From Liolophura sinensis (taxonomy: Eukaryota; Mollusca; Polyplacophora; Chitonida; Chitonidae): a DNA stretch of 64,000 nt. The DNA is taken from NCBI RefSeq assembly GCF_032854445.1, contig NC_088302.1, positions 21,401,788 to 21,465,787 of the forward strand, written 5' to 3'. The notes beneath the pieces are model-generated. The model saw only the letters and a program-made list of their open reading frames with translations, ran no database searches and had not been told where the DNA came from. Positions 22,801 to 28,800 of the stretch are shown one piece after another (the stretch's first letter is position 1; the number at the start of each line of letters is the position of its first letter). The position numbers were made by a program, and so were the translations under genes.

Positions 22801-25800
22801 GTACAAAGTAAACATTCTGCATTACGTCACATTCCACACTTGATGTACGACGTAGACAATGTCATCAGTGATGGAAACTGGGCTAAGCCATATGCCAAGG
22901 TAGACAACTGACAAACTTCCCCACATGTGACACACATTTTCATCCACACAAAGCTGAATTATATCTGTGAAAGGCAAGTGTTATCCCACGAACTTCATGT
23001 AAAGCCAACTTAAGCGACATACAAGTGCTGTCCACTAGTGCCACCAATACAGCAAGGACAAGGGAATCTGAAAACTCTCTGTCCAAGGCTGGGATTGAAC
23101 CAACACCTGCTTCCCTGGACTACCCTTTCTTTTGAAATTATATTTAGGAAGGGGAATGCGGAACATTAACTTACAATTAGTGCGCCGGAACGTTATAAAA
23201 TTTGGTGAGCAGGTGCTGAAGCAGCAAAAGTAGTACCCCTTAGTATACCTGAGCCTACCCACTTTAATTTCAGGAGGGGGGCTTCAGCCCAACCCCCAAG
23301 GTCCCACGGATCCGCCGCCTACATACAACACTTGCAAACATTATTTTTGCCATACCACAAGGGCAAGACCTTCTATCAAACTAATCTCACTGCTGATGTA
23401 TGTATAGTGCTGACTACCTGTAACACCATGCTGATGACACACTCACATGACACCCCACCCTGTCTTATATGCTCTTACAGTTTATCACAATTGTGTCACA
23501 AAAACTGCTTTAGTTGGGAAGCAGAACATGTTTCTTTCCCGTAACATCCCTTGACCTGTACACTCACCTGTTTGGATGAAGCACCTTTACTGCCAGCAGA
23601 ATAACTACTCGGCCTGACATCACTTTTCCTTTTCTTATCCTCATTACCACTTCTCGAATGGCTACTTGAACCTTTCGCAGATTTGTCACCAATGTGTGTC
23701 TCTTGGACAGAATTCAACTTCACAGGTTTCACTTCCTCTGATTTATCACCTTTCTCGGCTTCATTTTCAAAGAAATATTTAATTTTTGGCTGATTGCTAT
23801 TGAACCGGACACAACTTTTCGATGTACTGGGCTTATTATTTCTGCCTTTCTCCATCTTTTTCTCCATGGAATGAACTGTCCTGGATACCTTTGGTTCACC
23901 TTTTGAGTCTCCTGGTTTAAACGAATGAGTCTTGAAACTTTCAGATGTAAGAGTATCAGTCTTAAAACTTTTTGATTTGAGAGTATCAGTCTTAAAACTT
24001 TCTGATTTAAGTGAATCAATCTTATGACCTTTTAAACAATTTGCCTCAACCTTGGTGGTTGTGTTGTTGACTAGTTGGGAAGCTTTAACAAACATGGACT
24101 TCGTTTCTTTCTTGCTACAGGCCGTCTTTTCCTCCAGTAACTGTCCTGCTGTGACAAAAGAAGATGCCTTTTCACAAGTCACAGGACTTGGCACTCTGTC
24201 TTCCATGTCCTCCAAAGTGCCACTGGAGGGTTTCGGCACTAGGGCCGGGTGGAGCTCAGACAGCGTGGACAATTTGCGAATCTCTCCCACAGTCTTCATG
24301 ATGGTAGCCTTGTAGCTATTGGCCAGTTTGCAGGTGGTTAAGGCCTGGTGCTCCAGCTCTAAAGCCCGTGGTCTGACATCGTCCAGTAAGGCCAGTAGTT
24401 TGTTAGGGTACTCTTTGAACACCTCCTTCACATTCTTACTGAGAGCTTCGTCGATCATCTGCAGACAGTGCTCCCTGGCCTGAAATCATTCTCTCTGTTT
24501 GTTTTACTGATGTTTTATTGAACATTGCTTTGATCATTACCACATTTGGAAAAAACATACTATGTTCTTGAAAGGTTACATTTTGGCCACACAGAATGAT
24601 GGCACAACTTGATATGCGCACGAAATCAATGGTCAAACCAGACGGATAATTTGTCACAGGAAAAATATTCCGAGATTAAAATGTGATGCATGCCTAATAA
24701 TTTATTTGAATCTAAATTTGTTGTTTATAACCAAACACATGCAGTTATTTATTGATCTGAATGGTGTTTTTCTCCATACTCAAGACTATTTTACTAACAC
24801 ATCATTATGCTGCAAGAAAACCAGGCAAAACCCAGAGGAAACCCACAACGATCTGCAGGATGTTGACAGACCTTCCCACATATGGCCGGAGTGGTACATG
24901 CAGCCAACATGAGCTGGACTCACAGCACTGATGAGAGGCTCCTGGGTCATTGTGCCATGCTGGTGTGCTAACTACCTTTGCCACTAAGGCTCCCCACATG
25001 CATTTAATCTGAATTATAATATTTATGAATATATTAAAAATATAAATATGATCAAAATCCAGGTTGAACACACTTGTTAGCTGAAAAGACCAAATTCTAA
25101 CTAATAAATTTGTTAACCATGTGTTACATGCTCATTTATAACATTATTACGTAAAGACAATAGATACCAAGAGGTGGTCCCAAATACCCACCAAACAGAA
25201 GTTACAAGTATTTTCACGTGTCTTTCATCCTCTTTAAAGAAAAATCAAACAAATATTTAAAACCACATTCACTGCTAACATTTTGGACTCTTTCATGAAA
25301 ACTTTTATGTTTTCTTCAACATAAAAAAAGGAAATTTTCTTTCCACAATTGGTGAACATAGTGTACAAAGGGTACAGTACCAGCCAGGCTACTTGCAACC
25401 ATCTCAAACAGTAAGTTTGGGTGTTTTCTTACTGGATGGCTCAATCAGTGGACAGGTAAAACTTTGGAGGTACAACACTAACCTTTATTGTAAGTTTGGG
25501 TATTTTCTTACTGGATGCCTGTATCAGTGGACAGGCAAAACTTGGAGGTACAACACTAACCTTTACTGTAAGTTTGGGTATTTTCTGACTGGATGCCTGT
25601 ATCAGTGGACAGGCAAAACTTGGAGGTACAACACTAACCTTTACTGTAAGTTTGGGTATTTTCTAACTGGATGCCTGAATTAGTGGACAGGCAAAACTTG
25701 GAGGTACCACACTAAACTTTACTGTTAGTTTGGGTATTTTCTGACTGGATGCCTGTATCAGTGGACAGGCAAAACTTGGAGGTACAATACTAACCTTTAC

Positions 25801-28800
25801 TGTTAGTTTGGGTATTTTCTGACTGGATGCTTCTATCAGTGGGCAGGTAAAACTTGGAGGTACAAACTGTTCCTCTCTTGGCGCAGGAGCACGTCCCTGT
25901 GAAAAAAAAAGGGAAAAATGAAGTAAATTTTTTTTCAGACTTATTTGTATTAATAATGTAAAACTAAAAAGACTCCACCAAGAAGTGTGATCATTATATC
26001 AAACTCAAATTATGCTGAAATAAACAGCATGTGTTTGTAAACAAATACAGAGACAAGGTAGCAACTTTTACCTGTAAACTACTAGGCTCCCACATATCTG
26101 AACATTCTACTGTATACCACACATATTACATGTATTTGAAATAAAAGTGGTTAGTCACAAGACAAAGACAACAGCATAAGGATCAAAATAAGCGATGCCT
26201 TGTTTTCTTTATTTTTATCACTGAACCCATGTATCGTTTTCTTTATTTTTATCACTCAACCCATGTAGAACTATGTGCGTAAAACAGTATATACTATAAT
26301 ATGTGTCACTTACAGCTTTCCTTTTCTTGAACTGGGCACGGATCAGCCTCTCTCTGGCTAATTTCTCTCTTGCCTCATAATCTGGGCCTTCTTCGTCACT
26401 ATTATCATACTGCTCTAACTCTCTGTCGGAATAAAAGCTATTACATGTAAATGAAAGTCACTCCCCAGGTCTAAACACCAGGGATAGGGTCTTCTTATAA
26501 GATTACAACCATCTACCCTATATGCAGGGAGGTACATATATGCAGGTAGTTTTACAGATGAAAGAAGCTGGAGTATTGCAAGTAAACCAACAACCTTTGC
26601 CCAGGAACTAGCAAACTTTCCCATGTATCATACACAACATACTGGTCAAAGGCACGAAGCCTTTGGTGAACTTCATGTAAGATCACACAGGACAGCATCG
26701 CCAAACCTTAATTGCCACCAAGGTCATGAAAACGACTGGAACTTTAGAGCTTCCCTGTCACAGAATGGTATTAAACCAACATGTCTTGTGGCCAGGTAAG
26801 CACTTTAACCACTCAGTCATAACGTTTCTCCGCCCCTCCAAACCTAATTACAAATCAATAGTTAAAGGATACACACTATGCTTTTAAGAGTGCTGAAGAA
26901 AGTTATGCAATTTTTTTTTTGAGACATGCTTTATATGTCTTAATAAACCTCTATTTCGAACATATAAGAAAGTTATGGCAGGAAATATGGAAATTTTTTA
27001 TCCTTTTTGAGATATGTTTTTAAATGTCTTGATAAACCTCTATTTTATATATATATTTTTCTGAAATTATGTCATCAATGAACTCACTGGATATGCATGA
27101 CTAGCTTGACGCCCTGAATTGGGTCACATTTTGAATGACTAATCCCCTCTTGGTATCATGACTTAACCTCACCGTTTCTGGCCTTTGCGCCCACCTCCGT
27201 ACAGCTCAGGGTCTGGGTCATCAGATACCATCATAAAACCACCGCCCCCGTACCTGCCGTTTTTGACAAATACGCCTTTCTGCAGGTCGTCCACTAACTG
27301 CGACACACGTTTTGGAAATGCACAAACGTCACACGACTTGTTACAATTAGGCTTCTCATCTCCAAAGTAGCAGGCTATGGCCCAGTGACGACATCTGTGG
27401 GGAAAACCGATGCATATAAGGTAATATCTAACAGTCGGCTGAGCATCTGTAAATAGGGAGGAAAATCTACCACTACTGATGTATATGAACCAGATAAACA
27501 ACTTCATTCTAATTTTTTTTTTTAAAACTTACCACACTTATTTTATTTTTATTTACTTAATTGGTGCTTTATGACATAATCAAGATGAGGTCATTTAGAT
27601 GACGGCGGCCGGCATTATGGTGAGTGGAAACCAAGCAGAACCTGGCGGGGAAAACCCATGACCATCCAGAGGTTGCTGGATGACCTTCCCAGGCATGGCT
27701 GGAGAGGAAGGCAGCGTGCCCTGGACTTGAACTCACAGCTACATTCTTCACACACTGAGTGTAAAATTCAATTAAAACAAATTAATTTTAAGCCAATTTA
27801 CTGAGGCTTGAATCTAACTTTATAACCAGACATCATGGCTGTGTAGATATTTAGAGCTAACTTACTTTGGTTCCTCGCAAAACTTAACCAAGGCGTCAAG
27901 AGCATCCTGGGATGCCTTAGCTCTTGCTTTTGCAACAGCTGGATTTTTCTATTAAAATACAAAAACAAATTATCAACACAATCATTAGAAAAAATACTCT
28001 TCCATCACACGTAATGAAAAATCTAAAATAGATTGTGTATGGATGTGGTCTAGAAGAATTATTTGTCTTACGCTAATTAAACAGTTTTAACCAGACACAA
28101 TCTAGAAAAGTTGTGATTTAGGAAGTTATTTTGCTTCCATGTCAACAATATGACTTCAGTTCATTCAAAAGTCTGCCTTTCACAAAAACAGCCGAGCGGT
28201 GGGTCAATGACAACTGTTGGGCAGCACCATTAATTGTCAACTTCTCAAAAGTCATACAGAAATGTCTTTGTTGTTCAAGGATTAAAACAAGTTACATTAG
28301 GAATATATTTGTCAATAATATAGAAGAAGCTGAATCAAAATTTCAGGAGTCTCACAAGTTCATAAGGCCAAGACAGGGTGGGGGCTCTCGTAAACTAAAG
28401 TGGCTAAAAGGCATGATTTTACAGCATTTGCTACACTAAATATACATCTTGTGTAGTCAGGTCTGTAAGATCAAAAACAGTGCAGTTAGCAACTTCTGTT
28501 AAATGATGTCTTTTAGCCCCATTAGCTTATGCCCCCCCCCCCCCCCCTTATCTTCATGAACTCGTGAGACTTCTAAAATGCTGACTCTTTTAGCTTATAA
28601 CTAACATTTGGTCTGTTGGCCTCTTTTTTCAAGAGGAATGCCACAGTGTTTCTCTCCTGCTGGGAGTAGTACATGCGACAGAATGAGGATTGTCTGTCCC
28701 TGCCTGCTCGACCCGACTCCTGGTAGTACCCCGCCATGGACTTCGGAACTGTCCAGTGAGCTACGAACCTGGAAGCAGAACAGTCACAACATTATCATCA

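Follow-up and report, generated by a model that had tools for sequence, protein, structure and literature searches.

A 78-bp minisatellite with repeated splice donors at the end of a RECQL5 exon in Liolophura sinensis

The 64,000-nucleotide stretch of the Liolophura sinensis genome analysed here (contig NC_088302.1 of assembly GCF_032854445.1, hereafter the window, in which all positions are counted) includes an exon whose end, together with its splice donor, is repeated in the intron that follows. This raises the question of which of the repeated donors can lead to a protein, and what the remaining ones would do if they were used. The reading judged most probable, at about 0.6, is that an ordinary minisatellite was seeded across the exon end, and that the exon's own donor would make the protein while the spare donors would leak non-productively at most. 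The features on which this reading is based are collected in Table 1.

Table 1. Features of the exon and its array, listed in transcription order (a slash marks the end of the exon sequence)
Feature	Position	Strand	Details
RECQL5 exon with phase-0 3' end	25795-25896	-	Open frame; acceptor cacag before 25896, donor aag/GTTAGT; the last ~71 nt are repeat copy 1
Unit 1 (exon copy)	25795-25872, repeat part from 25865	-	Units are counted from the donor
Donor 1, the exon's own	25793-25794	-	aag/GTTAGTAT; the only one of the four intact donors without a stop before it
Unit 2, intronic copy	25717-25794	-	Differs from the exon copy at 4 of 69 core positions; next donor destroyed (TTTAGT at 25716)
Unit 3, intronic copy	25639-25716	-	In-frame TAG, then intact donor 3 (25638)
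In-frame TAG stop	25663-25665	-	Common to all transcripts that reach from the normal acceptor to any of donors 3-5
Unit 4, intronic copy	25561-25638	-	Followed by intact donor 4 (25560); CAG acceptor-like site, open 36-nt segment 25561-25596
Unit 5, intronic copy	25483-25560	-	Followed by intact donor 5 (25482); CAG acceptor-like site, open 36-nt segment 25483-25518
Unit 6, decayed, end of the array	25405-25482	-	+1 insertion, donor lost; differs from the exon copy at 12 of 69 core positions
RECQL5 exon 9, given to the end of the open frame	23499-24479	-	Start at 24479; translation matches human RECQL5 in PDB from the first residue

The RECQL5 gene around the array

The gene had been predicted to be RECQL5. 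When the exons at 26.4, 25.9 and 24.5 kb, which lie around and include the array exon, were translated and joined, the product matched five human RECQL5 sequences in PDB with E values of 1e-23 to 8e-23. Seven PDB sequences were found at E<=1, of which five are helicase Q5 and the other two are unrelated reverse transcriptases (E 0.5-0.6). A Pfam scan took in five stretches of the coding sequence, leaving out the blocks at 32.0 and 28.7 kb, which were recognised by eye only. DEAD (E 7.3e-25) and SRI (E 4.5e-6) were above the cut-off in one stretch each, RecQ_Zn_bind was below it in one stretch (23.3 vs 25 bits), and the array exon and exon 9 were without any family match among the five stretches scanned. 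The helicase, zinc-binding and SRI blocks are found in the order expected for RECQL5, with the zinc-binding block recognised by its match below the cut-off.

Coding blocks are located at 35.3, 33.9, 32.0, 28.7, 27.9, 27.4, 26.4 and 25.9 kb, as judged by eye with the human protein as a guide, and exons further up could have been missed in this way. With the block at 27948-27865 included, the array exon is the eighth when counted from 35.3 kb, and the name exon 8 given to it in the original prediction fits this count. The exon has a strong-looking acceptor (nine T, then CACAG) and is open from 25896 to 25795, where GTTAGT follows on the minus strand, in agreement with the proposal that the right-most unit is the functional exon end. 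The exon 9 acceptor had also been placed correctly, as the next exon starts at that position and its translation follows human RECQL5 from there. The true end of exon 9 is probably earlier than the end of its open frame, at cag/GTGAGT. The end of the array exon aligns to human RECQL5 inside the chain of 4BK0, the KIX structure.

Other repeats were observed in the same gene. A second small in-frame repeat (23928-24024, 30 bp x 3.2) lies inside exon 9 and encodes a peptide repeat. Two related 33-bp arrays (CCAGTCAGCCCTCA...) at 29682-30074 and 30642-31054, ~570 bases apart, both fall in the interval from the 32.0-kb block of RECQL5 to the 28.7-kb block.

Units of the array and the direction of copying

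A tandem 78-bp array had been claimed, and TRF delimited one on the minus strand at 25411-25865, with a period of 78, 5.8 copies, 93% matches and a score of 761. The first unit of the array overlaps the 3' end of the RECQL5 exon. Of the shared repeat unit (25865-25788), ~71 nt are exonic and ~7 nt intronic, with some ambiguity as to where the break falls. Each unit had been described as a copy of 26 codons plus the donor; the donor was indeed copied, but 26 codons make up the whole unit, donor included. The claim that the 78-bp period keeps the frame likewise stands for part of the array only, as the frame is lost at the +1 insertion in unit 6. By chance alone, one period in three would be divisible by 3.

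When compared pairwise, the units differ at 1-12 of 69 core positions, the lowest value being that between units 2 and 4 and the highest those between units 1 and 6 and between units 2 and 6. A search of the assembly with the DNA of the exon and array found one place in this one assembly, with a method that scores the best candidates and skips very common words. The exact unit pattern had no match in the genome-contig and viral-contig collections, from which records near the window's own may be left out, and this is expected for a gene of an animal. The runs of N in the window (7570-7769 and 60300-60499) are both far from the array.

The direction of copying can be read from the segment encoding CPLKEASS. 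Its Glu position is Glu in human RECQL5, GAA in the exon copy, GAG in unit 6, where it is out of frame, and CAG (Gln) in units 2-5. Retention of the human Glu in the exon copy, with Gln in units 2-5, supports copying from the exon into the intron, and the exon can be accepted as the source of the copies, as first proposed. ACC and a GAR triplet are likewise common to unit 6 and the exon copy, the place of ACC being taken by GCC in units 2-5. Judged by these shared bases, unit 6 seems to be the oldest of the intronic copies, and units 2-5 seem to stem from a later amplification of one changed unit. The exon copy and unit 2 both end in CTAACAG, units 3-5 end in CTTACA and unit 6 has an altered form; the end shared by unit 2 and the exon copy suggests that exchange may have taken place near the exon. 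By a hand count, units 2-5 differ from the exon copy by 10 distinct core substitutions, and none of these falls at codon position 2, which hints faintly at a possible constraint on the copies (chance ~0.02 if the positions are equal).

As the abundance of minisatellites bears on how such an array is to be explained, 20 stretches of 10 kb (200 kb) were taken at round positions on ten contigs, and arrays with a period of at least 20 and a score of at least 200 were counted. The sample contained 28 arrays that cover 8.8% of the bases, with nine of the 20 stretches without any. By the same criteria, the window has 10 arrays (8.0%). At the sampled density, some exon-end arrays are to be expected in the 609-Mb genome. 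Only three of 39 arrays (sample and window, either strand) carry a donor as good as that of the RECQL5 array, and these are the RECQL5 array itself and both copies of one duplicated 82-bp family. Carriage of donors as a general habit of minisatellites in this genome was thereby ruled out, and the rarity of donor-grade sites among the arrays indicates that the donors of the RECQL5 array come from the exon.

The 82-bp array is carried by the two copies of a direct duplication of at least ~6.6 kb (window positions 1-7569 and 9214-15803, 96-97% identical), one copy having ~17 units and the other ~5. The first copy runs up to the N gap that starts at 7570, and the arrangement could reflect either a genuine tandem duplication or scaffolding that joined two haplotypes. 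A 21-bp array of ~15 units, whose period is likewise divisible by 3, is located at 49977-50297.

Splice donors, the shared stop and alternative readings

The identical 9-mer aagGTTAGT is present after units 1, 3, 4 and 5, with its GT starting at position 25794 at the exon itself, and donor sequence is hence found in more than one unit of the array. These sequences agree with the statement in the original prediction that the donors of units 1, 3, 4 and 5 are intact and those of units 2 and 6 damaged. In the window, the exact 9-mer occurs five times on the minus strand, four of these in the array, and not on the plus strand. The donor matrix used for scoring was not derived from this species and fits the RECQL5 donors only roughly. 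With this matrix, the four array donors tie at 4.43 bits and are the top four among the 115 GT sites that lie between this exon and the exon 9 acceptor, the best non-array GT site in the intron scoring 2.34 bits. Across the window, GT sites that score at least as high as an array donor by the same matrix number 35 of 3762 on the minus strand and 39 of 3887 on the plus strand. Four of the seven other assigned RECQL5 donors score only -0.4 to 1.85 with it, less than the best GT sites of the intron outside the array, and a low score therefore does not exclude use.

The TAG predicted in unit 3 was confirmed and sits 24 nt before the end of this unit and thus precedes donors 3, 4 and 5. An exon extended from its normal acceptor to any of these donors would have the same frame, consisting of the exon, 43 more residues and the stop. 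Since the TAG lies upstream of all three surviving intronic donors, their use would give one shared truncated product, and several different truncated proteins were ruled out. Coding use of the whole array was ruled out by the same TAG and by the +1 insertion in unit 6. Full-length protein would be made from donor 1 alone. Transcripts from donors 3-5 are expected to undergo nonsense-mediated decay, as further junctions lie downstream. Read-through had been predicted to truncate the helicase before its KIX-like and SRI regions. The content of exon 9 and the SRI block would indeed be lost, but the cut falls inside the start of the KIX region and not before it, given that the array exon aligns within the 4BK0 chain.

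No special RNA fold of the array was seen (z 0.09 vs 100 shuffles). On the opposite (plus) strand, a 134-aa open frame at 25279-25683 crosses the array and is most likely a by-product of the 78-bp period.

Taken together, these data point to the following course of events. A 78-bp segment, made up of the last ~71 nt of the RECQL5 exon and the first ~7 nt of the intron, appears to have been duplicated in tandem, and the inner units appear to have been re-amplified later. The exon copy would be held by protein constraint and the intronic copies would decay, as suggested by the stop, the dead donor and the frameshift. The intact gene implies that splicing of donor 1 to the exon at 24479 would give the protein. 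Donors 3-5, identical to donor 1 from -3 to +6, would be spares, and their use would lead to the one premature stop that they share and hence to a truncated product or to nonsense-mediated decay. The array may thus lower the output of RECQL5 and would not diversify the protein. In favour of a minisatellite seeded in this way are the period, the units, the donors with their top rank among the GT sites, the homology of the exon to human RECQL5, the conserved Glu in the exon copy, the TAG before donors 3-5, the abundance of minisatellites, the lack of an unusual RNA fold and the existence of known arrays of like anatomy. What could count against it is the retention of a donor at three of the five intronic unit ends, of which selection may be an alternative cause, and, faintly, the lack of changes at codon position 2 among the core substitutions.

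Donor 1 differs from donors 3-5 at +7, with A in the former and G in the latter, and A at this position gives a slightly longer match to U1. The exon that ends at donor 1 is also the shortest (102 nt vs 258, 336 and 414 nt for donors 3, 4 and 5). Both features favour exclusive use of donor 1, with the intronic copies as inert relics. Such a silent array is possible though doubtful, as over the scored 9-mer, itself only moderate (T at +3), the intronic donors do not differ from donor 1, and as ABCA7 uses a donor one repeat unit further on. The identity of the donors and the stop upstream of every spare would also fit a functional extension of the exon, in which the choice of donor 1 over donors 3-5 is regulated and the number of units tunes the RECQL5 level via the shared TAG, and in the CBS exon 13 repeat more units go with lower activity. 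This would, however, be unlikely in a genome where arrays are common, and with one donor dead and one lost among the five intronic unit ends.

The idea can be carried further to a rheostat for a DNA-repair helicase, where identical donors would compete, all spare donors would have the one stop ahead of them, and the unit number would set the amount of full-length RECQL5. Inserts of 12 residues at the KIX start could be added by mini-exons of units 4 and 5. As a whole, this proposal is quite improbable. Its mini-exons were also weighed separately, as nascent 36-nt cassettes of units 4 and 5 that are spliced in frame from a CAG site to the unit's own donor and add 12 residues each. Sites of the form CAG/GC are present in units 2-5 (25753, 25675, 25597 and 25519) with 69% pyrimidines before each, and in units 4 and 5 the 36 nt that follow can be read without a stop, in the frame of the exon, up to an intact donor. 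However, a TAG resembling an acceptor stands at 25833 in the exon copy, at nearly the corresponding place and after 75% pyrimidines, so that the sites are not a clean gain. Three other sites in the intron pass the same crude filter, which the true exon 9 acceptor fails, the AG-free stretch before the site is 20 bases vs 41 at the exon 8 acceptor, and the resulting exons would be very short, all of which makes such cassettes scarcely credible. An assembly artefact or a private allele is suggested by the fact that the array is known from a single assembly, in which a repeat could be mis-sized. Both are highly improbable: the pairwise differences among the units speak against a copy error of the assembly, the array is found at one place in it and no gap is nearby. 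A private allele would be compatible with the other readings.

Comparison with known exon-edge repeats

A 1995 paper on human IFI6 (6-16) reportedly names in its title a minisatellite with multiple splice donor sites. Two downstream repeat units of IFI6 are said to serve as donors (PMC4526556), and the RECQL5 array similarly has repeat units at the exon end with candidate alternative donors. In human ABCA7, the intron 18 VNTR consists of 25-bp units in ~12 to 427 copies from the first base of the intron, its unit begins with the donor GT of exon 18, and there is a report of a transcript in which one unit is retained (PMC5954066). The length of the ABCA7 array affects splicing; the extension reported is out of frame, and skipping of exon 19 is stressed as the main effect (PMC5954066). 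The RECQL5 repeat resembles this VNTR in that it includes the splice donor of the exon, but differs from its 25-bp units and intronic start in having 78-bp units of mostly exon sequence that are in frame until the TAG.

The human CBS exon 13/intron 13 repeat is described as a known 31-bp polymorphism of 16-21 units, c.1444_1467+7(16_21) (PMC2630376), and a larger number of units is said to go with lower enzyme activity (PMC5188458, PMC1395315). By its name, this unit has 24 exonic and 7 intronic nt, comparable with ~71 and 7 in RECQL5, whereas the RECQL5 array is known as 5.8 copies in one assembly and the CBS repeat as 16-21 polymorphic units. Minisatellites at exon-intron boundaries in human segmental duplications are stated to alter exon-intron structure via repeated splice sites (PMC2812944); these repeats are reported to have novel introns within them, while the RECQL5 copies sit in an intron that was already there. 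Introns can also be gained when exon segments that carry AGGT are duplicated in tandem, and cases in fission yeast have several 24-bp copies (PMC4974935). RECQL5 shares with these cases the tandem exon-segment copies with splice signals, and a new intron is absent from the evidence here. Hence, exon-edge repeats with repeated donors are already known (ABCA7, CBS, IFI6), and the RECQL5 array is a new example. The description of the arrangement as unusual was overstated, as the repeats at human ABCA7 exon 18 and CBS exon 13 are similar in anatomy. A literature search for RECQL5 with such a repeat found nothing among the matches listed, which is not proof of absence from print.

The locus is a natural test of a duplicated donor, as one acceptor is followed by four copies of a single 9-mer donor, spaced in 78-bp steps of which one is missing. 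RNA reads at the array could reveal how position governs the choice of donor. For this minisatellite-rich genome, it illustrates that an array can arise from the end of a coding exon with the surrounding gene still readable.
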